From contig OY754469.1 in NCBI GenBank assembly GCA_963575645.1, positions 44,970,753 to 45,034,752 of the forward strand: a stretch of 64,000 nucleotides of DNA, read 5' to 3'. This document shows, one piece after another, positions 1 to 61,938 of this stretch. The notes below the pieces were generated by a model. It was given only the letters and a program-made list of their open reading frames with translations, made no database searches and had not been told where the DNA came from. The stretch comes from Xanthostigma xanthostigma. Taxonomy: Eukaryota > Arthropoda > Insecta > Raphidioptera > Raphidiidae. The translations under genes and the position numbers were made by a program. Each line of letters opens with the position of its first letter. The stretch's first letter is position 1.

Positions 1-461
1 TAACTGGACGCTTGAAAATACTCAAACGGCTATGTTCGTTTAGCACATAGCGGTAAAACTGTTGAACTGTCTGAGAACAGCTTTAGTGCATTTCAGTTTG
101 AAAACTGGAACTGAATGGCACTTAAATGGGGTCATTTAAAATTGCATATAATATGTAGTAGTTAAACTTATGAAAGAAAATATAATCATACAAAATAAAT
201 CAACTTACGTTAACAATAAACACACAAAAGCAACGTATAATAATTATTCATAAGTTTTAATTAGACTGTTTATCCCGCATTTAAACTTATATTTTCACAT
301 TAAAACTACTTATATTTATGTTAATGATGCAACAGCTCGTCATATGACAGGGCTTACGGAAAACAAAATATCATATTTATTCGAAATAGGTCTTTTTTCC
401 ATTTTCAAAATATTCTAAGAGATGTAAAACCAACCATTGAACCCTTTGAATTTATAACAAA
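1..461. other. Gene-free AT-rich stretch
   Basis: I see no supported gene, RNA or repeat boundary here. The stretch is AT-rich, with short A and T runs and no long reading frame. Confidence 0.5.
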
Positions 462-1510
462 ATAAAATAAGACACCTTGATATTATGGTATGATAAAATT
501 ACACGGGATACAAGGCTAAATATAAAAACAATTTTAATGAGCCTTTTTCCTGAGAATAGTGCAGCGAAAGTGTCACGAGAGGCAGCACTAGTAGTAGGGA
601 CAAACATAAAATATTTACATGCCAACCAATGTTATTTACGTGATATTATTTTATTATTTAAAAAATTTTGAACTGATAAACTTATCACTGAGAGTCATCA
701 TTTACATATGTTATCGAAATTATTTTTAAAATTAATTAAAAAATGAATAGTAAATTTTTGACAGTTTATTACCATTGATTAGAATGAGATATAACCTCAA
801 TCTTTTATTAAATTATATTCATTTATTATATTTAATTAAATTTATTTTATTACCATATATTTTTGATTCATATTTCATTTGGAAATAAATCTGAAATTCA
901 TAATTATTTTCAATTTCTCTTATTACAGTCTGCATACTAACCTGTCTATTAATTCATTTTTTTTCCAGATACTTTTAAATTACGACACGCAAGCCAACGT
1001 TTTAATGTTACTACATTGTTATCTTTTACAGTTGCAAATTTTAGTTTTGCTCCAGGAACATCATCTTCTGTTAAAATTTTTTTTCAAGTACACTTTAATG
1101 TGTGTTTATATGGGGATTTGACAGTGTTTGTCCCTACCGAACTACTAGCGCTACTAGTGAGTGATTTTTCGTACTTCATGAAAAAGGCTCATTCACTAGA
1201 ACATCATTTAATCGTCAACGTTTCAGCAGAAATTCATGTTTTCTTCAGGACCTTAAAAATGTCTAGTAAAAAGTCATAAAATTAAAAACATAAAATAATT
1301 TAAAAACATTATTATCAAACATTTAAAACTTTTATAAAAACTAAACTTCACAAATAATAAAAACTTTAAAAGATCTATTTTAAAAAATTTAAAAATATAT
1401 CCATTCTTTCTAAAAAATTTTGAGATTTTGTTCTAGTGAATTAAAATTGTTTTTATATTTAGCCTTGTATACCGTATAATTTTATCATATTTGAATTTAT
1501 AAGATGTGAT
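462..1510. repeat. Penelope-like hairpin repeat, family with GGGATACAAGG arms, split by an AT-rich insert
   Basis: The left arm (about 462-549) and right part (about 1180-1500) carry the same sequence in opposite orientation: GGGATACAAGGCTAAATATA at 504-523 and its complement around 1460-1485. AATGAGCCTTTTTC (536-549) is complementary to 1180-1193. Between them, on the minus strand at 1221-1248, is CTGAAGA followed by a weak stem and GAAA. The same family is better preserved at 43015-43200. About 630 bp of AT-rich sequence lies between the two parts. The Penelope-like assignment is an inference from structure, not from a reverse transcriptase. Confidence 0.5.
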
Positions 1511-5890: not shown

Positions 5891-6176
5891 ACTAGCGGTC
5901 CCGTCCGGTTTCACCCGGGTGTAAAAGAACGAATGGGGAAGGGAGGAACATGAGTAGGTACACACATTTATCTTAGTTTACCGAGATGAATGTTGTGTCC
6001 AAATTTCATGATGATAGAGTTACCGTTCAAAAGTTTTTGTCGATAAAAAGCAGTATTTATACTATTTTTAACTAATATTTTTATTTTAATTAATTAAATA
6101 AAATTAGAATAAATTTAAATGTAAGCCTTAGAAGAAAGCAATGTAGAAAATAAAAAAAAGTAAATAAAAATGCATT

Positions 6177-6248
6177 CGCCCAACGTAGGGCTCGAACCCA
6201 CGACCCTGATATTGACAGTCGTGTGCTCTACCGATTGAGCTAGCCGGC
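6177..6248 (-). repeat. tRNA-Lys(CUU)-derived module in a Helitron
   Basis: On the minus strand it reads GCCGGCTAGCTCAATCGGTA, an A-box-like start, and later GTGGGTTCGAGCCCTACG, a B-box/T-arm. It resembles animal tRNA-Lys(CUU), but the anticodon arm is altered and the surrounding sequence is repetitive. I treat it as tRNA-derived repeat sequence, not a working tRNA gene. A residual RNA polymerase III promoter is possible. Confidence 0.7.
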
Positions 6249-6283
6249 ATTGTATTCTGACAACGCTAATATGAGTATATTTA

Positions 6284-6529
6284 ACAAAAATATTAGGAGC
6301 ACTGTGGTTTGAATCTAATAAAAAATAGAGAATAGTTACTTCTTACCACAACAAGTTTATTAGTGGATGTACATTTCGAGAGCTATGCTCTCATCTTCAG
6401 CAATACACTAAACTAAGTTCATATAGTTTCATATAGTTTAGTGTATTGCTGAAGATGAGAGCATAGCTCTCGAAATGTACATCCACTAATAAACTTGTTG
6501 TGGTAAGAAGTAACTATTCTCTATTTTTT
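6284..6529. mobile_element. Hairpin retroelement with 13-bp target-site duplication and paired hammerhead-like motifs
   Basis: Arms at 6319-6415 and 6434-6530 appear perfectly complementary (97 bp, the outermost base falling in the duplicated site) around an 18-bp loop, with about 35 extra bases at the left. ATGAGTATATTTA occurs at both 6271-6283 and 6530-6542, while the related Helitron at 24251 has one copy of this region, so it is a target-site duplication. Each arm has CTGAAGA, one T, the stem GAGAGC/GCTCTC and GAAA (minus 6374-6400; plus 6449-6475). No protein is encoded. Related single arms lie at 7700-7830 and 43640-43745. Penelope-like origin is inferred. Confidence 0.75.
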
Positions 6530-6758
6530 ATGAGTATATTTAGTTAGTGCATTTCACCTGAATAGAAGCTTATTTTTGAGATAAATTTTTTAACATTTTT
6601 CATTAATGCTCCGTTCCTAATGGTCGTAGCCTGATTTTATATAGCCTATAGCCTTCCTCGATAAATGGGCTATCCAACAAAATTTTTTTTTTCAATTTGA
6701 ACCAGTAGTTCCTGAGATTAGCGCGTTCAAACAAACAAACAAACTCTTCAGCTTTATA

Positions 6759-7161: not shown

Positions 7162-7699
7162 TTATTTTTGGATATGTTCAAGCCCACCTGCCCCCCCCCC
7201 CCCCCTCTTGCTACGTCCATGGAATATCCTACGCCCTAGTAGTGATGACTAACAAACACAATAGTAATTGAGTTCGGTGAAAACGAGCCTTAGAACCTTA
7301 CAATGTTATAATAATGACAATCTAACGTTTTTTTCTCCGAATGAGTAACTTTATTGTCTATTTATTTATGACTATATTTTGTTTAATTAACTTCAAGCAG
7401 TACGTTTTAGCAGAGCACTCTTAATTAAAACATGTAAATGTTCTCTGTATTATTTTTATACAACGGGCAAATATACTTGTTTTTGTCTTTCATATTTAAT
7501 AACGAATAAAACATCCTGTTTCCGCCATAACAGACGCCACCCACGCCTGAATAATCTAATTAAATAATGACTTAAAATATAAAAAATAAAATTTATATAT
7601 TTCATTTGCAGCTTCATTCTACGCATATACATTAATCTTTAATTTGACACAAGTAAATATTTATTATTATTAACGTCGAAATAATCAGTAAATAGAGTA
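7162..7699. other. Gene-free stretch with poly-C run
   Basis: A run of about 16 C bases lies at 7190-7205. I see no gene or classified repeat in the rest. Confidence 0.4.
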
Positions 7700-7830
7700 A
7701 CAATATTAAGAGCACTGTGGTTGAAACAAAAATAAAAAATATAGAATAGTTACTTCTTACCACAACAATTTTATTAGTGGATGTACATTTCGGGAGCTAT
7801 GCTCTCATCTTCAGCAAACACTAAACTAAA
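7700..7830 (-). repeat. Single arm of the hairpin retroelement family at 6284
   Basis: AATATTA, GAGCACTGTGGTT, TAGTTACTTCTTACCACAAC and GGATGTACATTTC match the left half of the element at 6284-6529. The minus strand has CTGAAGA, a T, GAGAGC/GCTCCC and GAAA (7788-7814). The second arm is missing. Confidence 0.65.
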
Positions 7831-9262: not shown

Positions 9263-10035
9263 AAGCCGGTAACGGACTGAGAGCGATAATATAATATATA
9301 TTTTATCTTACATATTACAAAAATATCGCTTGTGATTAAAAAGTACAAAACGCCGCGCATTGACGCTATAATATATATCTATATCCAAGCGGTATATTTC
9401 ATGAAAGTACAAATATGCTTTCCGAGCGATATTTTGCATTATATCTCACCTTCCTCTTGCGTCTTGTCGCCCGCAGATGTCCTGCTGCCGTCGGTCACTT
9501 TGTTGTCTATAGACTACATATGCTTTTTGGCAGCTTTTCTATTTCAAATCACCGATATACAAACCTTAAAGTAATTGCTAGTCGCTCTAAAGAACTAATG
9601 CTTTCCCGAAAATTTGTATTTTTATTCTTTATATCATCTTTAATTAAATCATGAAGTTCAAAAAATGTTTTTCTCTCCATTCGAAATTATTTGTAAATTT
9701 TTCGTCACTCAAGTCATTAAAAAGCGTATTTTCACCCCGTTCTTTTCTAAATTTAATATGCTCAGATATTCAAAATCTTGGTTTTTCATTTTGGACAGTA
9801 GCAATCATTAAAATATCATCACATGCGGCATTTGATTCATCCTCCGATGAGCTATCGATGGTATCCAGCAATAGCATTTTGAAAAAAAAATATGCACATA
9901 CACTAGGAAATAAAAAGTTTAAACTTGCAAAATATAAAAAATTAGTCCGCAGCACTCAACATATAATATTATATTATATCTCATTACAGAGCTATAATAT
10001 ATATTATATTATCGCTCTCAGTCCGTTACTGGCTT
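9263..10035 (-). mobile_element. PIF/Harbinger-like element, copy 1 (773 bp, oldest)
   Basis: Terminal inverted repeats begin AAGCCGGTAACGGACTGAGA on the left and are complementary on the right, continuing into an AT-rich GCGATAATATAATATAT. TAA can be read on both sides if the repeat is counted from AGCC. Compared with the 803-bp copies at 10048 and 21149 it lacks about 30 bp and has many substitutions. It carries a broken transposase N-terminus on the minus strand. Confidence 0.75.
9570..9885 (-). pseudogene. Harbinger-type transposase N-terminal remnant, copy 1
   Basis: The minus strand encodes a decayed version of the 113-codon segment described at 21304-21645. TIDSSSEDESNAACDDILM and ATVQNEKPRF are visible, followed by a stop codon and frame disruptions. 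Relative to the other two copies the SSSGG segment reads SSSED, so this copy may preserve an older state. No catalytic domain is present and it cannot encode transposase. Confidence 0.55.
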
Positions 10036-10047
10036 AAACTTACCTAT

Positions 10048-10850
10048 AAGCCGGTAACGGACTGAGAGCGATAATATAATATATATTATATCTTACATAT
10101 TACAAAAATATCGCTTGTGATTAAAAAGTACAAAACGCCGCGCATTGACGCTATAATATATATCTATATCCAAGCGGTATATTTCATGAAAGTACAAATA
10201 TGCTTTCCGAGCGATATTTTGCATTATATCTCACCTTCCTCTTGCGTCTTGTCGCCCGCAGATGTCCTGCTGCCGTCGGTCACTTTGTTGTCTATAGACT
10301 ACACATGCTTTTTGACAGTTTTGTTTTATTAATGACTAGTTTTCTATTTCAAATCACCGATATACAAACCTTAAAGTAATTGCTAGTCGCTCTAAAGAAC
10401 TAATGCTTTCCCGAAAATTTGTATTTTTCTTCTTTATATCATCTTTAATTAAATCATGAAGTTCAAAAAATGTTTTTCTCTCCATTCGAAAATAATTTGT
10501 GAATTTTTCGTCACTTCAGTCATTAAAAAGCGTAAATTCAACCCGTTCTTTTCTAAATTTTATATGCTCAGAAACCCAAAATCTTGGTTTTTCATTTTGG
10601 ACAGTAGCAATCATTAAAATATCACATGCGGCATTTGATTCACCCCCCGATGAGCTATCGATGGTATTCAGCAATAGCATGCTATTAAGAGCCATTTTGA
10701 AAAAAAATATGCACACACTAGGAAATAAAAAGTTTAAACTTGCAAAATATAAAAAATTAGTCCGCTGCACTCAACATATAATATTATATTATATCTCATT
10801 ACAGAGCTATAACATATATTATATTATCGCTCTCAGTCCGTTACCGGCTT
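10048..10850 (-). mobile_element. PIF/Harbinger-like element, copy 2 (803 bp)
   Basis: It starts only 12 bp after copy 1 and has the same termini, AAGCCGGTAACGGACTGAGA and complement. Its length equals that of the inverted copy at 21149-21951, and the peptides read from both copies in several frames are identical. Copy 1 and copy 2 are therefore different insertions arranged in tandem. A clean three-base target duplication is not seen here. Confidence 0.8.
10354..10695 (-). pseudogene. Harbinger-type transposase N-terminal remnant, copy 2
   Basis: This is the mirror of 21304-21645, with the same single in-frame stop after FTLFND and the same terminal stop after ITLRFVYR. The identity of both breaks shows that the element spread after the gene was already disabled, using transposase from elsewhere. 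Confidence 0.65.
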
Positions 10851-13264: not shown

Positions 13265-14610
13265 TAGTTAGGTACGCGGTGACAAAAGTGCCTTGCAACT
13301 CCCAAACGGATGATAAGCACGTTTTTGTATAGTTCGAGTGTCGTTCTCGAAATCCGTGTTGTCGAGTAGGGGTCTGGCGTCCGGCGTTGAGCGGCTATAG
13401 TATTTTTTCCGAATTTTGCCCAACGGTTCCAAAAATCATTTCCCAAACGGATGAAAATTACTGTAGGGCATCTACGCAAACCCCCAATTACCGGAAAAAT
13501 ATTTTCATCCGATTTGATATTTGCAAAGAGCTCTTCCAGAAGCTCTAAAAAAAAGGGAAAAAAGGGGGGGAAAAAATTTCCTCATTTGAACTTGAAATTT
13601 GGCAGGGAGATATAGTTCGTGTCTGAGAATATGTAAAAAAATTTTTTTTGCTCTATGTATCGCGATCGCTTTGTAACAATTTTCCAAAATTTAAATGGGC
13701 CAAATTTGATAAAGTAATTCCCAAATGGATGAAAATTTGCCCACAGGTTCTTTGACACCTACAGAACATCGAAAAATTATTTTCATCCAAATTTGTTGCG
13801 GTCAAGTCCAGATCATCCATAATAATGCTCCGATATACCTATTCATTATCACGGGAAACTGCAGGATCTGAATGTTCAATCTTTAATGTGGAAAGGCCGA
13901 TTACAATCAAATTGTGTATTATTGTCCTAAACATTGATGAGACTATTTTCCTCTGATTTGACGATTATGAAGGGAACACTCCGACTTTTGGACCGTGTGA
14001 ACGCTCCAAGCGCATACTTCATCCACAAATTAGCTAGTATCTCTTTACTAGTGTTTGACTAGCTTTGCTCGTGAATTAAATTTGGTTATTATATAGGCCG
14101 ATTGATACCAAAGTATATATGTATAGCCACATATTATCAGAAAATTTACGGAGAACTCCGGGATCAAAATCACGCGCGCTGGCGGGGTTTTTTGTTATTT
14201 GGCATAGTTTAGCCAGGCGCATTTTGGATGAAAACTTTTTTTTCTAATAACATAAATAATAATCATTCATATCAGTCCGGTTGCATGCATGCGGCTGATG
14301 ATTTTTTTCATTTCGGAGTCTGGGTCCATTTAATTGTACTGCAGGCTACGGCAAGGATCAAATCGGATGAAAATATTTTTCCGGTAATTGGGGGTTTGCG
14401 TAGATGTCCTCCAGTAATTTTCATCCGTTTGGGAAATGATTTTTGGAACCGCTGGGCAAAATTCGGAAAAAATACTATAGCCGCTCAACGCCGGACGCCA
14501 GACCCCTACTCGACAACACGGATTTCGAGAACGACACTCGAACTATACAAAAACGTGCTTCTCATCCGTTTGGGAGTTGCAAGGCACTTTTGTCACCGCG
14601 GCCCTAACTA
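13265..14610. mobile_element. 1,346-bp TIR element with TTA target duplication
   Basis: Inverted repeats of about 245 bp (13265-13519 and 14365-14610) begin TAGTTAGG and include GCGGTGACAAAAGTGCCTTG. The bases TTA flank both sides (13262-13264, 14611-14613). The empty site, GATTAGAA within GTCTGATTAGAATTCTTC, is seen at about 39848, which supports the TTA duplication. CAAACGGATGAAAAT or close variants recur at least five times inside in both orientations. Three-base TTA duplication is typical of PIF/Harbinger, but no transposase was found. Confidence 0.7.
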
Positions 14611-14625
14611 TTAGAACTCTTCAAT

Positions 14626-14935
14626 AAATAAAATTATCGACCAATTTTTCAGACAATATATTAACAAAAAAATATATAATTATTTCCATGACTACATAAT
14701 AAGAAATTGTTTGTTATTATTTTTTCATTATTTTGATAATCATTAATAATTTTGAAAGATTTTATAAAAAGCTAATTAAAATTTAAATATTAATTATTTT
14801 TTATCTTTTTTAGATCAGTTCTGAAGAAGGTCCAAAACCGGATTGAAACGTTAATGTATTAATTATATATTTTTTTGTTAATATATTGTCTAAAAAATTG
14901 GTCGATAATTTTATTTATTTGACTAATACTAAAAA
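14626..14935. repeat. Penelope-like inverted repeat, family with ATCGACCAATTTTT arms
   Basis: The arms ATTATCGACCAATTTTTCAG (14632 on) and its complement near 14895-14920 flank a plus-strand CTGAAGA, an A, GGTCC, a loop, GGATT and GAAACG (14821-14848). The same family is at 57266-57660, and single arms occur at 39850-39890 and 43935-44000. The TIR element at 13265-14610 inserted into its left flank. Confidence 0.6.
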
Positions 14936-24435: not shown

Positions 24436-24823
24436 TTTTGACGTGATAACGTCTTATAAATTTATGAATCACCAATCTTATAAATTGATAAAACACCGAC
24501 TGCATGCACGAAAAAGTGTAACGTAACGTTCCTAACGCGTAACGCGTAACGTTCCGCCTGACCCTGTGCGTGCTTTTTGCTAATTTCTCGCTCAATTTAA
24601 ATCAGATCGGTTTGAAACCAGTCTTAAACGAAAGAGGAGAACATTTTACATAGATTTCGTATAACAGAATTTGCCTAAACAGTTTTTTTATACAAATTTA
24701 TATAGAAAAATAGCTGTATAAATGCAATGTTGTCTAATGATGTAGAATTTAGGTTATGTATTACGGAATACGTTATCACGTAAAACTATCGTCCGTAAAC
24801 CGACTTTACAGACAACCAATTTT
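24436..24823 (+). repeat. Interspersed repeat shared with 45229-45833
   Basis: TTTTTGACGTGATAACGTCT, CTGCATGCACGAAAAAGTG, GTTCCGCCTGACCCTGTGCG, GTATTACGGAATACGTTATC and CCGACTTTACAGACAACC occur in the same order in both copies. The 45-kb copy has about 200 extra bases in the middle. The class is unknown. Confidence 0.65.
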
Positions 24824-24912
24824 TTTTTATTAATTAAATAAAATTAAAATAAATTTAAATGTTAGCCTTAGAAGAAAGCAATGTAGAAAATAAAAAAAAA
24901 TAAAAATATATT

Positions 24913-24990
24913 CGCCAAACTTGGGGCTCGAACTCACGACCCTAATATTGACATTTGACAGTCACATGCTCTACCGATTGAGCCACCTGG
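24913..24990 (-). repeat. tRNA-Lys-derived module in a Helitron
   Basis: The minus strand has GGCTCAATCGGTAGAGC (A box) and GTGAGTTCGAGCCCCAAG (B box). A few extra bases in the anticodon region rule out a normal tRNA. Confidence 0.65.
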
Positions 24991-25271
24991 AGTCGTGTTC
25001 TCACAACGCTAATATGAGTATATCTAGTTATTGCATTTCACATGAATAGAAGCTTATTTTTGAGATACATTTTGCAACATTTTTCATTAATGCTCCGCTC
25101 CTAACAGTCGTAGCTCAGGTAATATTATATAGCCTATAGCCTTCCTCAATAAATGGGGTATCCAACAAAAAATTTTTTTTTACAATTTGAAGTAGCTCCT
25201 GAGATTAGCGCGTTCAAACACACAAACAAACTCTTCAGCTTTATATATTAGTATAGATTTATATAAAACAA

Positions 25272-30548: not shown

Positions 30549-31960
30549 GTGTCAAATAAGTGCGACAGTCTCAGCTCTGGGAACAACATTATCAGAGCTA
30601 GTAAGATCCAAAGAAAACTAGATACTCGAAAAATTAATAACTGCATAAATGAGCTACTTGAAATGGGTGCCATTTCAAAATGTCAGCCTACTGTGGGTCA
30701 GCACCTATCAAAAATCTTCGTGGTGCCAAAACCAAATGGCAGTAACAGATTTATTTTAATTTAAAAAAAAATCTAAATACCTTTCGAAACTCGAAACATT
30801 TTAAGTTGGAGGACATTAGGACTGCGATAAAATTAATTTCAAAAAATTGCTATTTTAGCACAATAGATCTGAAAGATTCATATTTTTGTTACACCTATAA
30901 ATGAGGGTCATAGAAAATTCCTTAGATTCTTTTTTTCAAGACATTTTGTATGAATTCAATTGTCTACCATTTGGCCTGGCCTCAGCTCCATACGTATTTA
31001 CAAAGTTAACGAGACCAGTACTTACATATTTAAGATCACGTGGTTGTATCTCAGTTAATTATTTGGATGATTTTCTAATAATAGAAAGTACGGCAGAACA
31101 ATGCAAAGATAATATCGACTTCACTTCCAAGTTACTTCAGTCACTAGGGTTTATAATTAATTTTGAAAAAAGTCTAACGACCCCTCGTAGAGTTTGTACA
31201 TTTCTTGGGTTTGAATTAAACTCACAAACTTCTACATTGGGCATTCCGCAGGAAAAAAGAAATAAAATATTTCTTTTAATACGACATTTCAAAGAACGAA
31301 GACAGTGTTCTATAAGAAAACTTGCTCATTTTATTGGCGTCATAATATCAATATGTCTAACAGTAGTATACGGTTGGGTACACACAAAAATGTTGAACGT
31401 TATAAATATTTAGCGTTAAAGAAAAGAGATAATGATTACAATATATTAATCACATTCCCGACCGAATTTACAAGCGAATTTCTCTGGTGGCATAACAATA
31501 TCTTACATTCTGTTAATCCTATTCGAACCAACAATTTCACTACGGAAATATATACCGATGCTAGCACTACGGGATGGGGTGCAGCATGCAATGGGGAAAC
31601 ATTCATGGTTTCTGGAAAGAAGATGAAAGTTCACATCATATCAACTATTTGGAAATGCTAACGGTATATCTCGCAATTAAATGCTTCACAAAGGACTTAA
31701 AAAACAGCGAGGTATTACTTCGTGTCGATAACACAACAGCGATTGCTTATGTGAATCGTATGGGCGGTATCCAATTCCCAAACTTAAACAACTTAGCCCG
31801 AAAAATTTAGAGTTGGTGAGAACATCGACATATTTGGATATTTGCATCGTATATCCAATCTAAAGAAAACAAAGAGGCTGATTTTGAGCCAGGTAGAACA
31901 AAAATCGAAACTGAATGGGAAATACACCCAGACATTTTCAAAAAGATTGTCAGTTGTTTC
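30549..31960 (+). pseudogene. DIRS reverse transcriptase and RNase H
   Basis: Frame 1 (30549-30764) ends with GAISKCQPTVGQ and KIFVVPKPNGSNRFIL, the finger region of a DIRS reverse transcriptase. After a frameshift at an A run, 30780-30895 holds STIDLKDSYF; then 30901-31413 has FNCLPFGLASAPYVFTKL and the catalytic box VNYLDDFLII, followed by CTFLGFELN. A further shift leads to RNase H: EIYTDASTTGWGAAC (31545-31589), NYLEMLTVYLAIKCF, and VDNTTAIAYVN (near 31750), so the acidic residues of the active site are present. After 31800 more frameshifts join to the DIDLFAS-type segment (IDLFASRINKKCSKFVSW, 31973-32026). At least four breaks destroy function. Confidence 0.85.
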
Positions 31961-33133
31961 GGTAAACCAGAAATAGACTTGTTTGCCTCTAGAATAAATA
32001 AAAAGTGCTCAAAATTCGTATCTTGGAAAAAGGATTCAGAATCGTACGCAGTAGATGCGTTTACAAAAATGGGAAAAATTTTTACTTCTATGCTTTCCCG
32101 CCATTTTTCTATGATTATGAAAACTTTACAAGCTTACCCTGGTTTCCGCGAAGTTGTCAGCACGGCATATCTAAGAAAGGGCCATTCTAAACACAGCATT
32201 GAGGTCATCATAGCTTCAATATCCAACGCTACAGCTAAACAATACGACCTCTACTTACGTAAGTGGTAAATATACTGTAATAAATGTCAAATTAGTCCGT
32301 ACACACTAGACGCCGCTCTTATTAATTTTTTAAATGAACTGTTCAGTAATGGAGCTGCATATGGTTCCCTTAACGGCGCTAGATCAGCATTGTCAATGAT
32401 TATGGGTCCGGAAGTAGGTTCTGATCCCACAATAAAGAGATTCTTTAGGGGGGCCTTTAATTTAAGACCCTTAAAACCGAAATACGAAAAAACCTGGGAC
32501 CCATCGCCAGTGCTAGAACACTTAGGCACTTTCGCCTAATGAAAGTTTAAACCTAGAAGTCTTAACCAAGAAAACAGTAACCTTACTATCTCTGTGTACA
32601 GCTCAGAGAGTACAAACTATTTCCTTATCAATATAGATAATATATCAATATGTAACGAAACGTTAGAGATAAAAAAAAAAAAAAAAAAAAAAACTGAAAA
32701 ATTTAAGACCACTGGCCTGGGTAGATTTCAACCTTTGTTACGAGTTCCAGACTTTACGGACAACCCTAACATTTGTCCAGCAACGGCTCTAGTGGGGTAC
32801 ATGAATAAGACTAAGAATATTAGATCTCACGCTAATAGACTATTTATTACATTCAAAAGACCATATCACGCAGCCTCTAGTCAAAGTATCAGCCGGTGGA
32901 TTAAACAAACACTAGAGGACAGCGGAATTAATACAAATATTTTTTCCGCCCATAGCACTAGACATGCTTCAACCTCTCTAGCAGAGAGACAGGGCATTAA
33001 TATAGACATTATAAGGAAAACAGCAGGATGGACAAGGTCGTCTTGTTCCTTCGCAAAATTCTACAATAGACCTATTGTAGGAAATGGCCTAGAATTTGCA
33101 AAAACAATTTTGCAATCCACCAAAAATAAGTAA
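31961..33133 (+). pseudogene. DIRS tyrosine recombinase
   Basis: The N-terminal helices are visible in KQYDLYLRKW (to 32269) and, after a stop, DAALINFLNELFSNGAAYGS and GARSALSMIMG (32310-32400). The catalytic domain follows: CTAQR with the first arginine (about 32599-32613), then, after an A-run of about 25 bases (32671-32692), RFQPLLRVPDF, HSTRHAS with the HxxR pair (about 32950), AGWTRSS, and FAKFYNRPI with the nucleophilic tyrosine (about 33053-33079). The R, H, R, H/W and Y set is thus recognisable across three frames. The family acts in integration of the circular DNA form. The poly-A expansion and stops make it a pseudogene. Confidence 0.85.
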
Positions 33134-39228: not shown

Positions 39229-40022
39229 TTAATAAAACCGTTCTTTTGCTACACTGTCATTTAGATTAAGTTTCTCGTTTTAATATGTTTTTATTATTGT
39301 TACGATAAAGAATGACATTTAATTTCTAAGTTCTATAAAATTGAAATTATGTTACGAACAAGAACCTAATAATATTGTAAACCTTCCGCCTTCGCGGTAT
39401 ATACTTTTTAAACGATGAAAGAATTTGCTGAAGAAACTCGAGCGTAGCTATAACCTGCGTATAGGTAATGCAAATTTACGTTTTTAAAAGCGTTTATATC
39501 TTACCTAATACATGTCCAAAATTTTCAAAAAAGGAAATATGTAAATAGACCTAACCGTGTATTCTTTTTTCATAATTTAAAGAAAAAGTAAATTCAGTTG
39601 CATAATTTTAACGAAATTCTAGGACCCGTGACCGCAAGCGTCAACATATATTAAGTTACAGATTCGCATAACTTACAATTTCACTTTTTTGAGTAGACAT
39701 GATGGTGATAATTAATAAATTAGTATAATTAAACAAATAGATTAGCAAATTAGGAAGCAATCATCGTTTGACGTTGCGTTCCGGGTTTGACTTCCGGCAG
39801 TAACATTGGTTTAAATAAATCTTTCTAATTCAAAAGTTTGATTAACGTCTGATTAGAATTCTTCAATAAATAAAATTATCGACCAATTTTATGATATGAC
39901 CGGCATTAAATACACGTTCCCCTTCAAGGAAATTTTTTTTTTCGGTGATTTGTATCAGCCCAATTACATATTGTGCTGATACTTATCATTTTATTGCACT
40001 TAAAAAAATTCACAATTGCACT
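39229..40022. other. Gene-free stretch with one arm of the ATCGACCAATTTTT family
   Basis: TCTGATTAGAATTCTTCAAT and AAATTATCGACCAATTTT (39845-39890) match the flank of 14626 and 57640. GTTCCGGGTTTGACTTCCGG near 39778 is weakly B-box-like, but I see no A box. Confidence 0.35.
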
Positions 40023-42845: not shown

Positions 42846-43014
42846 GATACAAGTCTAAAGAATCATTGGGCGTGATTCAACCGTGGCAGCCAATCAGCTG
42901 ACGTTGTCTAGCAATGACGTATCTCTGTAGCGGGGCTATTCTATATTTTAAACTGCATTTAACGCTTTTTGGGCTTTCTTTTCTTGTAGAAAAAGCTTCC
43001 AAACATAAAAAAGT

Positions 43015-43200
43015 GATGAAATTAACGGGATACAAGGCTAAATATAAAAACAATTTTTATTCACTATAGAACTTCATTTAATGTCAACGTTTCGGCAAAA
43101 ATTATTGCCTTCTTCAGGACCTATAACAAATAAATATTGTTTTTATATTTAGCCTTGTATCCCGTTAATTTCATCATAACATAATACCAAGGTGTCTTAT
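43015..43200. repeat. Penelope-like hairpin repeat, GGGATACAAGG family, best copy
   Basis: Arms GATGAAATTAACGGGATACA (43016 on) and its complement near 43160-43180 extend about 45 bp through CTAAATATAAAAACAAT. Between them the minus strand has CTGAAGA, an A, GGCAA, a loop, TTGCC and GAAACG (43090-43117). The related split copy is at 462-1510. Confidence 0.65.
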
Positions 43201-43639
43201 TTTATTAAAAAAAATGTGTTATTATTAAAACAAAAAAAAAATGTAGGACGAGTCCATTGAGGATGATCCGATATTGAATGCCCTAGTTCGCACACATGTG
43301 TTACTGAACAACTAACGTAAAACAAACTGTTGTTGGGCGAAATATAACCAATATGCGAGCATTATGCAAACTGTCTCTATTTGTATTATTTTATTGATAC
43401 ATTCCACAATATACAACACGGTTTGTTATTCAAATACATAGAACACACAAGCTCCGATAAAATATTCAGCGAACTATATTGTGCGTACAACGGGGGGGTC
43501 GTCCCACATTTGTTTGAAGTGAAACTTCTTATGCGGCGCCACTGCGCCTCGGCGATTTGTTTTTACGCGGGACAATATATTGCCAGCAGTAAAAAGTCGC
43601 AGTATTGGTCTGTACCACAAATACATCATTTTTAATACA

Positions 43640-43745
43640 ATACAGTTTAGTGTTTGCTGAAGATAAGAGCATAGCTCCCAAAATGTACATCCACTAATAA
43701 AACTGTTGTGGTAAGAAGTAACTATTCTTTATTTTTTATCAATTT
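43640..43745 (+). repeat. Single arm of the 6284 hairpin family
   Basis: CAGTTTAGTGTTTGCTGAAG, ATGTACATCCACTAATAAA and GTTGTGGTAAGAAGTAACTA match one arm of 6284-6529. The motif is decayed: GAAA reads CAAAA. Confidence 0.65.
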
Positions 43746-44586
43746 TAATGATTAGTTGGTTTTTTCTATTCCGAAAGTATTTTAAGTTTGACTACGAACA
43801 TAATTGGTAGTGGATTTTAATGAACTTTGGTAGATAGGCACTATCTACCAAATTTTATTAAAATCGATCCATCCGTTTTCAAATAATGCCGATACAAACA
43901 GGGAAACAATGCATACTTATTTTTTAATATCTTTGATTAAATGTTTGATTAGAAATCTTCAATAAATAAAATTATCGATCAATCTTTCAGACAACTATAT
44001 TTCATGCAAACTTATTTTTTATTTAGACACAAAATATCTTAAAAATAAAAACTAAGAATGATTATGCTGAATTGCCTCATATGGCCTGCCACTGGCCGGA
44101 CTTGTTTCAATATGAACTTTGTGAATTGTTTGACTGGAAAATAAATGCTTCAATCATTTTTTACTCGAAAATTCAATTGCATTTAAAACGTTTTTAAATT
44201 ACGTTTATTGTTTGTCAGGAAACTAAATTTTGTTGAAATCTAATAAAAGGCATTTCGTATTTTTATAACCAGCATTTTGTAATTTAGTCAAAACAGACGT
44301 CACCGATCAGGGCTGAACTTTTTGTAGGCCCATAAAATTGGCATAAAAAAGGTCACAAACATAAAAATGTTACAGCCTAGCAAACGTTCAATCTTAAACA
44401 GTAAGAAGTATTTCGTGGTGGTATACTATTGGTGAGTGTAATTCAATAAACTAATTAAATTAACTGTTAGTCGTTTATCAACGAATCAACTGTTTTTGTT
44501 TTTAGATTTAACTGGTTGATGATTCAACTACTTTACCAATCATTAACAATAATGCATTCTGTACGCAAAATTATTATTCCCTCATA
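43746..44586. other. Gene-free stretch with one ATCGACCAATTTTT-type arm
   Basis: TGTTTGATTAGAAATCTTCA and AAATTATCGATCAATCTTTC (43940-43990) match the arm family of 14626. The rest is unrecognised. Confidence 0.35.
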
Positions 44587-46239: not shown

Positions 46240-46780
46240 TAGTGATGTGCCGGATCGTTAAAAATGTATATCCGCGGATACGGATCTGAATACGGATATT
46301 TGGTTTCAAGATCCGCGGATACGGATACGGATCTTAAATTTCTTAGAGTACGCGGCGGTAAATATTGCACATCGACCTTTGGAAAGAGACTATCTGTTAT
46401 GGGAAAAAGTTATTGACCTCTTTAAGAGTTAACTCTCATAACAGATTGTCTCTTTCCAAAGATCGATGTGCAATATCTCATTATAAAGATAGTTTTTTAG
46501 TACCTTTGAGTTATGTATTATTGGTATGGTACTCACTACGATAAATTTTTGCAATATAAAGGTGCCAAATATACGATTTTAAAAAATAAAAAATGATCTG
46601 AATGGAATTTAACAGTTTTTCATTATTAACTAATCACCTATATATATAAAATTTCATCTATGAATTGAAAATTAATAAGGTTAAAGATCCGCACAAAAAC
46701 TAACGGATACGGGTCTTTATTCTCTCTCGGATATCCGGAAACCAAGAAGATTTGGATCGTAATTATCGTCACCATGTTTA
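46240..46780. repeat. CGGATAC-rich repeat with an internal palindrome
   Basis: GCGGATACGGATC recurs at about 46273 and 46316, with CGGATACGGGTC at 46703 and CGGATATCCGG at 46729. AGTGATGTGCCGGATC at the left edge resembles a hAT-type terminus. Inside, ATTGCACATCGACCTTTGG (46363 on) and its complement near 46460-46475 form an inverted repeat of about 120 bp. Confidence 0.5.
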
Positions 46781-47690: not shown

Positions 47691-47828
47691 CGTTTATATG
47701 ATAACGCGCGTTCAACGCGCCACCAACGCGCGTTATCATATAAACAGTCCTATACAATTGTATAGAAACTGTAAACGCGCGTTGGGTCAACGCGCGTTGA
47801 ACGCCTCTCATATAAACTAGGCCTTATA
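47691..47828. mobile_element. Truncated copy of the AACGCGCGTT palindromic MITE
   Basis: It carries GTTTATATGATAACGCGCGT, TTCTATACAATTGTATAGAA-like centre text and ends CTCATATAAACTAGGCCTTA, matching the right two-thirds of the intact copy at 47853. Confidence 0.7.
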
Positions 47829-47852
47829 TATTGGTATAGATATTGCACACGT

Positions 47853-48066
47853 AAGGCCTAGTTTATATGAGAGGCGTTCAACGCGCGTTGGCCCAACGCG
47901 CGTTTACAGTTTCTATACAATTGTATAGAACTGTTTATATGATAACGCGCGTTGGTGGCGCGTTGAACGCGCGTTATCATATAAACAGTTCTATACAATT
48001 GTATAGAAACTGTAAACGCGCGTTGGGCCAACGCGCGTTGAACGCCTCTCATATAAACTAGGCCTT
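47853..48066. mobile_element. Near-perfect palindromic MITE (~214 bp) with AACGCGCGTT repeats
   Basis: The ends are AAGGCCTAGTTTATATGAGA and its complement. AACGCGCGTT or its overlap occurs eight times, symmetric about the centre near 47960, with two TATACAATTGTATA palindromes. TA lies outside each end. The whole element can fold into one hairpin. Confidence 0.8.
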
Positions 48067-48697: not shown

Positions 48698-49408
48698 CTG
48701 AAGAACGAATGGGGAAGGGAGGGACATGAGTACGCACATTCATCTTAGTTTACCGAGATGAATGTTGTGTCCAAATTTCATGATGATTGGAGTTACCGTT
48801 CAAAAGTTTTTGTCGATAAAAAGCAGTATTTATACTTTTTTTAAGTAATAAATTTTAAATCAATAATGACTGTAATTAATAAAATATAATAAATATTTAA
48901 TTGAAAACACTGTATGATAATTATTTTTATATATAGGTACCTATAGTTTTAACAGTTTTCAAATGAGCTATTAATTAGATTTATTTAACTTTAATTAGTC
49001 GTAAATAAAATTAAAATAAATTTAAATGTAAACCTTACAAGAAAGTACCTAATGTAGAAAATAAAAAAAAAATAAAAATACATTCGACCAACGTGGAGCT
49101 CGAACCCACGACCCTGATATTAACAGACGCATGCTCTATCGACTGAGCCAGCCGGGTTTGTGAATGTACAATATTGGTATATTTAGTTAGGGCATTTCAC
49201 CTGAATAAAAGCTTATTTTTTATACATTTTGCAACATTTTTCATTGATACTCCGCTCCTATTGGTTGTAGCGTGATATTATATAGCCTTCCTCAATAAAT
49301 TGGCTATCCAATAAAAACATTTTTTTCAATTTGAACCAGTAGTTCCTGAGATTAGCGCGTTCAACCAAACAAACAAACAAACTCTTCAGCTTTATATATT
49401 AGTATAGA
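48698..49408 (-). mobile_element. Composite Helitron lacking its CTAG terminus
   Basis: The minus-strand start is TCTATACTAATATATAAAGC at 49408 leftward. The tRNA-like block is at 49085-49156 and the ACTTTTGAACGGTAACTC block at about 48790-48810. The element ends at GAAGAACGAATGGGGAAGGG instead of the hairpin and CTAG, so the 3' end is truncated by about 40 bp. Confidence 0.7.
49085..49156 (-). repeat. tRNA-Lys-derived module in a Helitron
   Basis: The minus strand has GGCTCAGTCGATAGAGCATG and GTGGGTTCGAGCTCCACG. It resembles the modules at 6177 and 24913 and is not a functional tRNA. Confidence 0.65.
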
Positions 49409-55657: not shown

Positions 55658-56198
55658 TATACTAATATATAAAGCTGAAGAGTTTGTTTGTTTGGTTGAA
55701 CGCGCTAATCTCAGGAACTACTGGTTCGAATTGAAAAAACATTTTTTTGTTGGATAGCCCATTTATCGAGGAAGGCTATAGGCTATATAATATCACGCTA
55801 CGACCAATAAGAGCGGAGCATCAATGAAAAATAATGCAAAATGTATCTCAAAAATAAGCTTTTATTTAATTGAAATGCCGTAACTAAATATACCAATATT
55901 AGCGTTGCACATTCAGAAGCCCGGCTGGCTCAGTCGGTAACTAATATATAAAGCTAAAGAGTTTGTTTGTTTGTTTGGTTGAACGCGCTAATCTCAGGAA
56001 CTACTTGTTCTATTGAAAAAAAAAATTGGTTGAATAGCCTATTTATCGAGGAAGGCTATAGGCTATATAATACCACGCTACGACCAATAAGAGCGGAGCA
56101 TCAATGAAAAATGTTGCAAAATGTATCTCAAAAATAAGCTTCTATTTAATTGAAATGCCGTAACTAAATATACCAATATTAGCGTTGCACATTCAGAA

Positions 56199-56275
56199 GC
56201 CCGACTGGCTCAGTCGGTAGAGTATCTACGCGACTCTTAGTATCAGGGTCATAGGTTCGAGCCCCACGTTGGGCG
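56199..56275 (+). repeat. Best-preserved tRNA-Lys(CUU)-like module
   Basis: It starts GCCCGACTGGCTCAGTCGGT and ends GGTTCGAGCCCCACGTTGGG then CG. The acceptor ends pair (GCCCGAC with GTTGGGC), CTCTTAG would present anticodon CUU, and both internal promoter boxes are present. The anticodon stem is broken by about three extra bases, and it lies in a Helitron, so it is not called a gene. Confidence 0.7.
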
Positions 56276-56482
56276 AATATATTTTTAATTTTTTTTTATT
56301 TTCTACATTACTTTCTTACATTTAAATTTATTTTAATTTTATTTACGACTAATTAAATAAATCATCAATTTGGAAATTTATTAGGGGGGGGGTCTACGTC
56401 GAAAAAGGAGTAACTATGCCAGATAATGGGAATGCATCCTTGTTTCGTCTCAATCGTGTGCGAAGCCGCGGGTAACGGCTAG

Positions 56483-57265
56483 TCGATTTATACATAATAT
56501 GCTTGTGTGTATAGGTGTATTTTTGGTGAATTCTACAAAACTCGAAAATCGTGCTATATGGTTTGACACTGGACGCAGATAATCTTTGCATTTAAATAGT
56601 TTTAAATAATATAATTCGAAAATTGTATGTGGGGATCGTATTTTCTTGAAACAGATTAGGTAAATGGAATATTATTTCTATTCACCGTGATTTAATATAC
56701 AATTATTCAGTTTAAAGGTTTTCAGTAAATCAAAGCGTGTTTCAGACTTCAGTTACTTTGCAGATTAGCCGTATGGCTTTTGACCCTTTGACAATTATTA
56801 GTATAAGGGTCAAAGTATACATTACACAAATGCAATGTTATACGTCGTGTATTATATTATACGGATTGTTCAAAAAAAATCTCAAATATACATATAGCAC
56901 GAACATACGTGGATTCAGAATATTTTTTTGAAGGGGACGTTGGAAAAGTGCAAAGAAAAAATGTCAAGGTCAAGTAAAATTGACATTTTCTTACTTTTTT
57001 TTAGTGTTACGTGCAAAACAGATCACTTATGGAATCGTTACGGTGTTACAGATGATTTTCTCTAAAACTATTTGACGTAAAAATTTTTAATTTGGCACAC
57101 AGATAGAGGGTGGTGGGCCAATTACAGACGTGAAGTATTAAAAGTTGAATTTAGATTTTGGGGGTTAATTTCAGGGTGTGATGAAAAGAAAATGTTTTTC
57201 AAGCGCATCGTGTGGGCTATCAAATGAAATCTTATGGAAACACAATATCTAATTTTTCAATACCT
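56483..57265. other. Gene-free stretch
   Basis: I see no supported feature. Confidence 0.3.
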
Positions 57266-57660
57266 AAATAAAAATATCGACCAATTTTTTTTACAAATAT
57301 ATTAACAAAAAATATAATTAATACATAAACGTTTCGATCCGGATTTGGATATTCATCAGAACTGATCTAAAAATATAAAAAGTAATTAATATTTAGTTTC
57401 TATTTATTTTTAATCAAATTCGTGAATGATTTTTTAATATTGAAATATTGAAAAAATAATATTCAATAATATTAAAAAATCTTTCACGAATTTCATTAAA
57501 AATAAATAGAAACTAAATATTAATTACTTTTTATATTTTTAGATCAGTTCTGATAAAGATCCAAATCCGGATCGAAAGGTTAATGTATTAATTATATTTT
57601 TTGTTAATATATTTGTCTGAAAAATTGGTCGATAAATTTATTTATTAAAGAGTTCTAATC
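57266..57660. repeat. ~390-bp inverted-repeat retroelement remnant with two hammerhead-like motifs
   Basis: The halves mirror around about 57455: ATCGACCAATTTTTTTTACA at the left against the complement of GTCTGAAAAATTGGTCGAT at the right. Each half carries the motif: minus CTGATGA, then ATCC/GGAT stem and GAAACG (57332-57359), and plus CTGATAA, an A, GATCC/GGATC and GAAA (57550-57577). The plus copy has one core change (G to A). The right arm continues to TCTAATCAGACGTTAATCAA. Confidence 0.65.
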
Positions 57661-58290
57661 AGACGTTAATCAAAGATTAAACACCTAATTTTTTTTTATT
57701 TTATTTTTTAAACTTTTTCGAGGAGTAACGCTTAAAAATTACTGTCCCCGACACTTATCACTCAGAAAAATCTGAAAAAGTTATGAGTATTAAAAATTAG
57801 GTGTAGATCGATCGAAAATTATCAAGTTTGAAACATTCTAGCGGAATCAATTGTTATAAAAATTTGATTGACTATATTTCAATCAATGAATGAATGAATG
57901 TTAAACTGGTATACAGTATTATTGAGCTCCATAAACGAGCTACGCTGCCTTGACCGTACAGCACAAGACGTAATTGCAGGATCGTGGGTTCGAGCCCCAC
58001 GTTGGGCAATTTTGTATTTAATTGTATTTTTAAATTATTTTTTCATTCTTTTTAGTAAAAAATTTGCATACGTAAAAAGAAAACAATATCGGGATTTAAA
58101 AATTCTAGAACGATTAATTGTTATAAATAATTCAAGTGTTTATATTTATTTTAATTACGGATATAAAATTTTTCATCAGAGCACATAGTACGTGGGGAAC
58201 AGACCAATTGCGCGAGTATAACTTGCACTTGACCGATTTTTACGCTTTTGTTCTGAAAATAATCTTTTTTAACTTTTGAAGTAGCTATAT
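57661..58290. other. Gene-free stretch with 3' half of the tRNA-like module
   Basis: GATCGTGGGTTCGAGCCCCA then CGTTGGGC (57980-58007) matches the T arm and 3' end of the tRNA-Lys-like module, without the A box. GCGAGTATAACTTGCACTTG near 58213 recalls the tail at 39100. Confidence 0.45.
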
Positions 58291-61604: not shown

Positions 61605-61938
61605 CAAATAACATGAACCATTTAAAATATCTGACACCTCGAATATGTCGACATATTCGAGGTGTCAGACATTTTATATGGTTCATGTTATTTGCCAGAG
61701 AACATTATTTTAGCGTTTTGGTTGAAGTTTTTAAGCTATCCAATTAAAAAATCAAACAGTATCTATAAATTTTTACATGTCGTCAAAACGACATGCTTCG
61801 GAAAATTTAGACGGAAAACGCCCCAAAATCAAAAAAAGTCATAGAGGAAATAAGTGTCAGACTAGACCTAATGAAGCCATATACAAAGTTTGGGGAGAGT
61901 ATTTGTCAGTAAAATTTTTACCGACGGGCACTCTGACT
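61605..61938 (+). mobile_element. Left-deleted copy of the 58291 MITE
   Basis: It contains a perfect-looking palindrome (TAACATGAACCATTTAAAAT through GTCGAC to its complement, about 61606-61692), then matches 58450-58712 to CTCTGACT at 61938. The outer left repeat is absent. Confidence 0.65.

Follow-up and report, generated by a model that had tools for sequence, protein, structure and literature searches.

Hammerhead-Type Cores in Head-to-Head Penelope-Like Repeats of Xanthostigma xanthostigma and a Probable Two-Ended Mode of Insertion

Introduction

The hammerhead core consists of CUGANGA, stem II, and GAAA, and in the textbook form stem II begins immediately after A9. Cervera and De la Pena reportedly described minimal hammerhead motifs in Penelope-like elements (PLEs) in 2014, and Lunse et al. 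are said to have described in 2017 small dimeric hammerhead variants that act as dimers.

According to a review (PMC6155905), the minimal hammerheads of PLEs are located in the pseudo-LTRs (pLTRs) and have a minimal core with little or no stem III, as do the motifs considered here. The present genome differs from these known sets, with which it is compared by their descriptions only, in that it contains several families, which are distinct in stem I, in stem II, and in the palindrome of stem III, as well as families with a U3/A8 core.

PAc, a Poseidon PLE of Anolis carolinensis, has two internal start sites, the interval between which constitutes its "tail"; both strands of the target are cut and extended, the protein is predicted to be a dimer, and the uncleaved RNA is the main template (PMC11167929). 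PAc and our family A are alike in having an ORF with RT and GIY-YIG and a pLTR hammerhead near the start of this ORF. The PAc ORF is said to begin at the start of stem II, C3 and G8 preceding the ATG (PMC11167929), which in our view would fit a U spacer after A9. In this element the ATG is inside the ribozyme, whereas in family A it is about 125 nt downstream of C3. The Penelopes of Adineta vaga have inverted pLTRs arranged head to head, one of them with an optional 31-bp tail (PMC3846280), and the insertions described below resemble them in the inverted head-to-head pLTRs, the tail, and the target duplications. For a hammerhead of Aedes aegypti, a palindromic stem III was likewise proposed to pair in a dimer, and natural covariation from C3–G8 to U3–A8 has been reported (PMC3088659). 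The present motifs differ from the Aedes case in their PLE source and in the spacer after A9, which is absent from the insertions in the text of that paper (figures aside).

Hammerheads of PLEs, inverted pLTRs, and tails have all been published before. With more than 26,000 matches to core patterns, the present genome preserves sites of initiation, ends of cDNAs, and cuts in the target in a natural archive, which bears on the integration of PLEs and the purpose of their ribozyme. The regularities of our sample are mostly one tail per two-armed insertion, an end point shared by most of the arms, and almost no ribozyme-cut templates. Taken as a whole, the data are probably best explained by hammerhead-type ribozymes in the pLTRs of several PLE families that insert at two ends.

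Core Sites of the Window

The genome of Xanthostigma xanthostigma used here comprises 623 Mb in 28 contigs, and the window, i.e., the whole stretch of 64,000 nucleotides that was analyzed, corresponds to positions 44970753–45034752 of contig C6. A sequence-only reading of the window had listed nine core sites, whose coordinates and strands we confirmed. In family A, these hammerhead-type cores are at 6374–6400 (−) and 6449–6475 (+), in the left and right arms of insertion A1, at 7788–7814 (−) in copy A2, and, in decayed form, at 43657–43683 (+) in copy A3. Family B has one core at 1221–1248 (−) in insertion B1, with a partly decayed stem II, and one at 43090–43117 (−) in insertion B2, with GUC/GAC in stem I and GGCAA/UUGCC in stem II. 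The family C cores are at 14821–14848 (+) in insertion C1, with two G–U pairs in stem II, and in the two arms of insertion C2: the left one at 57332–57359 (−) has lost the first pair of stem II, and the right one at 57550–57577 (+) has an A at position 8 and an altered stem III palindrome. The full core is present at seven of the nine sites, the exceptions being 57550, with its A at position 8, and 43657, where the G of GAAA is gone. The same reading had treated the families as unrelated; the stems and tails of A, B, and C do differ, but a single architecture is common to all.

The pattern CTGAWGA-N(8-30)-GAAA has 10 matches in the window, three of which (1673+, 28430−, and 55100−) are not among the nine sites. 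Dinucleotide shuffles give 1.63 on average, and none of 100 shuffles reaches 10; a chance origin of the motifs was rejected. If the stem must have five or more pairs without interruption, 6374, 6449, 14821, and 43090 are left, compared to 0.02 per first-order random window; in each of the four, a single unpaired base separates CTGANGA from the stem. At the remaining sites of the nine, stem II is interrupted or the core is altered.

With a covariance model (R1) that represents five other families of this genome, none of them present in the window, the eight best matches all belong to the nine sites and have scores from 41.6 to 17.8 bits. These include 43090 (41.6 bits), 14821 (34.7 bits), 1221 (26.8 bits), 57550 (24.7 bits), 6374 and 57332 (22.9 bits each), and 6449, which also passes the pattern and stem tests; the eighth-ranked site, 7788, has an E value of 0.11 only, and the next match, outside the nine, scores 17.7 bits. 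With a model of 15 family representatives, which include further copies of families A, B, and C (R2), all nine sites, 6449 among them, are the top nine matches, with 39.2 bits for 6374 and 17.6 bits (E 0.06) for the decayed 43657.

The search with hammerhead covariance models that had been proposed along with the nine sites went against them, as the Rfam models give no hammerhead call in the window at their gathering scores and none at E values up to 10. Searched alone, 6443–6489 scores 11.6 bits to RF00163, with a cut-off of 34, and the 43090 stretch has no Rfam hammerhead match. The proposed folding gave a mixed outcome: in the monomers of family B and of the GAAAA family, stems I and II are paired and the core is left open, but the monomer of GATAC does not adopt the hammerhead fold. 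For the family A dimer, an extended duplex is calculated to be 0.7 kcal/mol better than the double hammerhead, and the extended duplex is likewise preferred for the B and GATAC dimers. The computed folds are compatible with a ribozyme, nothing more. The hammerhead reading calls for caution on two counts: the search patterns preset the core, and the hammerhead fold is not the favored one for the GATAC monomer or for the dimers of A, B, and GATAC.

Pairing of the Stems in Genomic Copies

In the whole genome, CTGAWGA-N(8-30)-GAAACGT has 19,200 matches versus 121 for the reversed pattern, family A, searched as CTGAWGATG-N(9-18)-CGAAAT, has 2,367 versus 5, and the exact family C core has 1,570 versus 0; the PLE-type core patterns sum to more than 26,000 matches. 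These counts do not represent independent events, because copies share descent. Two non-random samples, both consisting of the first places on contig C1, were considered. The basic-pattern sample has 77 regions, which hold 99 of the first 100 places listed (place 2433564 was left out), and the family A sample has 40 regions, 24 with close pairs and 16 with single cores, which hold 64 of 100 listed places.

The core was defined as C3 U4 G5 A6 N7 G8 A9 ... G12 A13 A14, with A15.1–U16.1 and H17. Its invariance is no evidence, because most of these bases are preset by the search patterns. The basic pattern asks for no pairing, however, and the 99 sampled cores can for this reason be used as a test of the stems. 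The free position H17 is T in 73 of them, C in 21, A in 4, and the disfavored G in 1. With one spacer base, 73 of the 99 cores form at least four of the five Watson–Crick pairs of stem II and 55 form all five, while with 0, 2, and 3 spacer bases at least four pairs are found in only 3, 1, and 0 cores, respectively. The sample contains 29 distinct stem-loop combinations, many of which are variants of fewer families; the latter include GATCC/GGATC, GAAAA/TTTTC, GATAC/GTATC, GTTGT/ACAAC, and GGCAA/TTGCC.

Stem I was examined in 49 distinct cores, where 71% pairing is found in the hammerhead register versus 22–48% in six shifted registers. For the nine pairs of the 15 family representatives, 88.1% of the cells are formed, which none of 500 shuffles reaches, versus 50.5% after shuffling and 31–50% in slid registers. 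In the first alignment (A1), the family A row, which has a longer palindrome, is off register in stem I and those stem I cells are misplaced; the second (A2), with gaps inside stem II, was set aside for a third of five equal-length families (A3). The stems of the genomic copies thus covary as the sequence-only reading had anticipated for stem II, and stem I does so as well. The short palindrome that it had pointed out as a stem III is also found. GAAA is followed, depending on the family, by ACGT, ATGTACAT, or ACTAGT, ATGTACAT being the palindrome of family A and ACGT that of family B. Of stem III there is only this palindrome of 4–8 nt, which could pair between two RNAs, and the folding energies do not discriminate.

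Cores in which U3/A8 replaces the C3/G8 combination have 4,594 matches in the genome versus 5 for the reversed pattern, compared to 604 for the single change U3/G8 and 374 for C3/A8. Independent decay would lead to about 12 U3/A8 cores, if the 19,200 matches of the looser pattern are taken as the unchanged count. The 23 sequences listed include at least three U3/A8 families (L526 is an example), and we read the excess as going back to a few events that copying has multiplied. Such families parallel the known C3–G8 pair and match the covariation reported for it (PMC3088659). Downstream of an 840-codon PLE open frame, UUGAAAA replaces CUGANGA next to a six-pair stem I, as judged by eye. A literature search with the core as a text string found nothing relevant. 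The main interpretation, that the nine sites are minimal hammerhead-type cores, is supported by these results; the motif would work like a PLE-type hammerhead, short of strict membership, and its cleavage is predicted.

The Spacer Base before Stem II

The 73 paired cores depart from the textbook spacing of stem II by one spacer base, which is A in 45, T in 27, and G in 1. That such an extra base is unusual, as had been remarked for the window, does not hold up against viral contigs. There, the spacer pattern has 47 matches in 46 stretches, 21 of them with a stem II of at least four pairs, and stems III and I are also formed in 18 of these 21 versus 1 of the 26 others. We take the spacer base as a variant, because complete three-helix hammerheads of viral contigs have it too. 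The 18 matches, in which a U is situated between A9 and stem II, come from 17 viral loci (L241, L242, L248, L258, L259, L261, L263, L265–L267, L270, L272, L275, L279, L281, L282, and L285), and one Paenibacillus locus (L302) has a complete hammerhead of the same kind. In the bacterial scan, a stem II of at least four pairs is found in 7 of 84 matches, one of them complete, and 1 of the 77 others passes for stems III and I.

At the Rfam gathering scores, no spacer-bearing core is called in 12 of the viral and bacterial loci, 8 of which have a complete hammerhead; the sole hammerhead call in these 12 is a type II elsewhere in L248. The core of L258 has no spanning hammerhead match at a relaxed threshold, a weak type II match of 12.1 bits overlapping its 3′ part only. 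In the loci scanned, the spacer after A9 of complete viral-contig hammerheads thus escapes the current Rfam models. Wider patterns were also tried on the viral contigs and rejected, as a stem of at least five pairs occurs in 3 of 240 stretches among the matches listed and none is convincing.

Penelope-Like Source of the Repeats

The sequence-only reading had taken the repeats for relics of one ribozyme-bearing retroelement lineage and had pointed to Penelope-like retroelements. For family A a source of the latter type is borne out, the core being found about 250 bp after frames for RT and GIY-YIG. The PLE origin stands, but a single lineage is too narrow, since this genome contains several families of PLEs, of which some have long open frames and many copies of equal score.

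Scoring of 150 of 521 candidates gave at least 37 GIY-YIG matches, which fall into 20 loci. A core with paired stem II lies downstream on the same strand at 12 of the 20 (L456, L462, L463, L465–L470, and L472–L474), which correspond to 11 distinct places because L465 and L467 overlap; the other 8 have no paired core within about 1.5 kb. At L468, L469, L470, L472, L473, and L474, a family A core identical to that at 6449 is situated about 250 bp beyond the open frame. All three open frames tested (L472, L466, and L475) contain RVT_1 and GIY-YIG, and the stretch examined at L475 has no core. At L476, an open frame of 804 codons (open frames are counted from stop to stop) is located between two tandem family A cores with an inverted partner, and a 15-bp duplication is present. 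No CTGANGA is found in L525, the 351 nt downstream of an 823-codon PLE frame, and the core of that family may be more diverged, further off, or lacking. A tandem PLE array with a spacing of 3,097 bp and five copies with 823-codon frames was seen at contig C7:24097379–24113211.

The elements display the PLE traits of RT followed by GIY-YIG in one ORF, tandem or inverted pLTRs, an optional tail, and a target duplication. A PLE source is observed for family A and some families outside the window, and for families B and C it is suggested by the shared architecture. In the window itself, tblastn matches 6283–6342 (−) to the first 20 codons of the 804-codon L476 frame with 95% identity. This stretch belongs to the tail of A1 and precedes the ATG at about +125, and it may be untranslated. 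A search of the window with seven query proteins found no other PLE coding sequence.

Insertions of the Window

Self-comparison of the window gives inverted repeats at 6315–6534 (A), 43014–43176 (B), and 14623–14919 and 57265–57644 (C), in each of which the core strand points outward from the center. These hairpin repeats are head-to-head insertions of PLE pLTRs. Insertion A1, at 6284–6528 (245 bp), has a tailed left arm and a right arm without tail (class LS); its inverted repeat is 93.6% and the arms are identical at 100 of 101 aligned bases. It is flanked by a 14-bp target-site duplication, TATGAGTATATTTA, at 6270–6283 (+) and 6529–6542 (+). The bounds and the duplication are assigned because the dispersed repeat that hosts A1 is uninterrupted at 24820–25245.

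The other two family A copies are one-armed: A2, at 7699–7829 (−), is tailed, and A3, at 43637–43737 (+), is without tail and has an imperfect 12-nt flanking repeat. B1, at 458–1489, has the core and the tail in its left arm and neither in its right arm, and is flanked by a 13-bp target-site duplication, TTTGAATTTATAA, at 445–457 (+) and 1490–1502 (+). Another element, with short terminal inverted repeats and GAGCCTTTTTC at one end, is nested in B1 at about 540–1190. B2, at 43013–43206, has a left arm with core and without tail and an inverted, core-less right arm with a tail of about 30 nt. In C1, at 14610–14919, the right arm has the core and no tail, and the left arm is core-less with a partial tail. 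No clear target duplication was found in the flanks of B2 or C1. The C2 palindrome, at 57258–57682, has a tailed right arm and a weak flanking repeat of 9–11 nt, and self-comparison also gives family C tail fragments at 39837–39890 (−) and 43929–44001 (−). One short arm and one with extra 3′ sequence (about 30 nt; 13 nt in C1) are found in all five two-armed insertions of the window.

Near-perfect terminal inverted repeats with target duplications are also what foldback DNA transposons (MITEs) would leave, the hammerhead-like sequence then being incidental. We consider this barely credible, because an element with RT and GIY-YIG has the family A arm as its pLTR, one-armed copies occur, the 3′ ends of the arms are about 34 nt apart, and the length of the duplication is variable.

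Orientation, Tails, and Target Duplications in the Genome

Among the core neighbors within 500 bp in two listings of 100 places each, 40 of 41 are in outward orientation and none is inward, while at 500–20,000 bp the orientation bias is absent. Neighbors of the PLE GIY-YIG domains within 8 kb, with 150 of 1,947 candidates scored, are outward in 22 cases, on the same strand in 11, and inward in none. The U3/A8 core listing has 11 outward and 4 same-strand neighbors within 500 bp. Retrozymes, i.e., small non-autonomous elements with circular RNAs that are delimited by cleavage at hammerheads, are likewise small, non-coding, hammerhead-bearing animal repeats (cf. PMC7229834). However, as described there, the animal retrozymes have direct tandem repeats and canonical type I ribozymes, whereas the close pairs here are head to head in 40 of 41 cases, stem III is minimal, and the units of family A begin elsewhere than at the cleavage site (1 of 75 arms is near the cut); an origin of this kind is highly improbable.

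The tails were classified at 43 family A loci, 40 from contig C1 and 3 from the window. The arm ends form two groups, at 79–98 and 112–142 nt from C3, with four outliers, and the interval between the short and the tailed ends is about 34 nt. Eight of the 43 loci have a single arm, and five of these eight come from the 16 single-core regions. The other 35 are two-armed, and 34 of them could be classified: a short arm is combined with a tailed one in 30 (P = 2.8e-6), and the 4 exceptions with equal ends are both short in 3 cases (SS) and both long in 1 (LL). The start sites of PAc were used in vitro without strand difference (PMC11167929), whereas here one of each is found in 30 of 34 insertions. 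The tail, optional in Adineta vaga (PMC3846280), becomes a near-rule here, and the data fit two-ended priming.

A reference-free search over several families found a target duplication of at least 10 nt in 18 of the 40 outward pairs, compared to 2.2% in mismatched flanks; in the other 22 no 10-nt duplication was found. One of the 41 pairs (L503), with unlike arms, had been dropped. The duplications are 10–17 nt long, with one ambiguous value of 20, and 14 of the 18 are 12–15 nt, whereas 8–10 bp are given for the described cases of Adineta vaga (PMC3846280). In 17 of the 18 pairs, the two arms differ by 28–45 nt; the difference of 5 in the remaining one (L504) is ambiguous, as its duplication is repeated. 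In the family A pair regions, 20 of the 24 were examined and 14 have a duplication of 9 or more nt. The tail rule also holds for three of four long insertions (5.9, 2.1, and 2.7 kb), with duplications of 15, 14, and 13 bp and arms of 117/83, 119/79, and 118/83 nt, respectively. The exception, L482, has an 8-nt repeat only and arms of 91/74.

The same evidence bears on an unlikely though serious alternative, namely that both head-to-head arms derive from a single cDNA, which would fold back and serve as its own primer, or that an antisense template is involved, as put forward for the rotifer Penelopes. Self-priming has been proposed for such inverted structures (PMC3846280), and it would agree with arms that meet mostly near one point and, in A1, are the same at all but one of the aligned bases. 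However, a snap-back predicts equal 3′ ends, while one short and one tailed arm are found at 30 of 34 two-armed loci, and the arm ends abut target duplications in 18 of 40 pairs. We therefore retain two-ended insertion.

Starts of the Arms

The starts of the family A arms are clustered, 58 of 75 being 8–20 nt upstream of C3 and 16 elsewhere; only 1 of 75 starts near the predicted cleavage site. The peak, with 28 of the 75 arms, is the A of AGTTTAGTG. In full-length PLEs this A is preceded by TC, CT, or TT, which we take to resemble the arthropod initiator. From the position of this peak, the arms probably extend as far as the 5′ end of a transcript that has not been cleaved. At L519, the initial 22 nt of the family A ribozyme are repeated four times in tandem between two arms.

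That the predicted cleavage products are nearly never templates would also agree with a protein-binding hairpin for packaging or priming, whose catalysis is lost or marginal. Moreover, the hammerhead of the anole PLE cut only with added protein and insertion did not need cleavage (PMC11167929), the core bases are preset by the search patterns, and catalysis is here a prediction only. Against such a hairpin, the double change U3/A8 (4,594) outnumbers the single ones (604 and 374), which fits a catalytic C3–G8 pair, stems I and II vary yet stay complementary, and the stem III palindrome is family-specific. Considering these points, we regard the hairpin as quite improbable and keep the hammerhead-type ribozyme in the following.

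Proposed Mechanism

On this basis we propose that the RT/GIY-YIG protein of the element would cut both strands of the target with an offset of about 13 nt, and that each target 3′ end would prime reverse transcription within a pLTR of the element RNA, possibly simultaneously. Of the two putative priming start sites, the upstream one would give no tail, and the one about 34 nt further downstream would give a tail. Both cDNAs would usually pass the uncleaved ribozyme and end just upstream of stem I, probably at the 5′ end of the transcript, and would then be joined head to head. Because priming takes place inside the pLTR and every transcript would begin in a pLTR, the most frequent product would be a short pair of pLTRs joined head to head. 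The ribozyme would act as a dimer in which the palindromes after GAAA (ACGT, ATGTACAT, or ACTAGT) pair between two RNAs to form stem III, with cleavage expected 3′ of the base that follows the palindrome.

A more specific version of this mechanism, which we put forward tentatively as a possibility somewhat short of probable, is that insertion is two-ended by design, each target 3′ end using a different one of the two start sites about 34 nt apart, on an RNA that both share or on two RNAs that are paired. Each complete insertion would have exactly one tail, the hammerhead would have to remain uncleaved at that stage, and the palindromic stem III may pair the templates. No statement of two-ended PLE priming was found in the PLE literature searched, a weak negative as the key papers are outside the coverage.

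Other Features of the Window

Long hairpins at 10000–10083, 46367–46478, 47794–47885, 47913–48006, and 61617–61682 have sub-cut-off matches to unrelated microRNA models. A microRNA identity was rejected for all five, which look like palindromic repeats, three of them matching on both strands. The dispersed repeat that hosts A1, perhaps a SINE, is found at 6080–6758, 24820–25245, 48984–49396, and 55668–56361, and its tRNA-like segment at 6177–6248 scores 24.1 bits to the Rfam tRNA model, below the cut-off. A DIRS-like retroelement remnant at 30901–33133 (+) has a reverse transcriptase match, a tyrosine-recombinase match just under the cut-off, and a weak Dam methyltransferase match, also under the cut-off.
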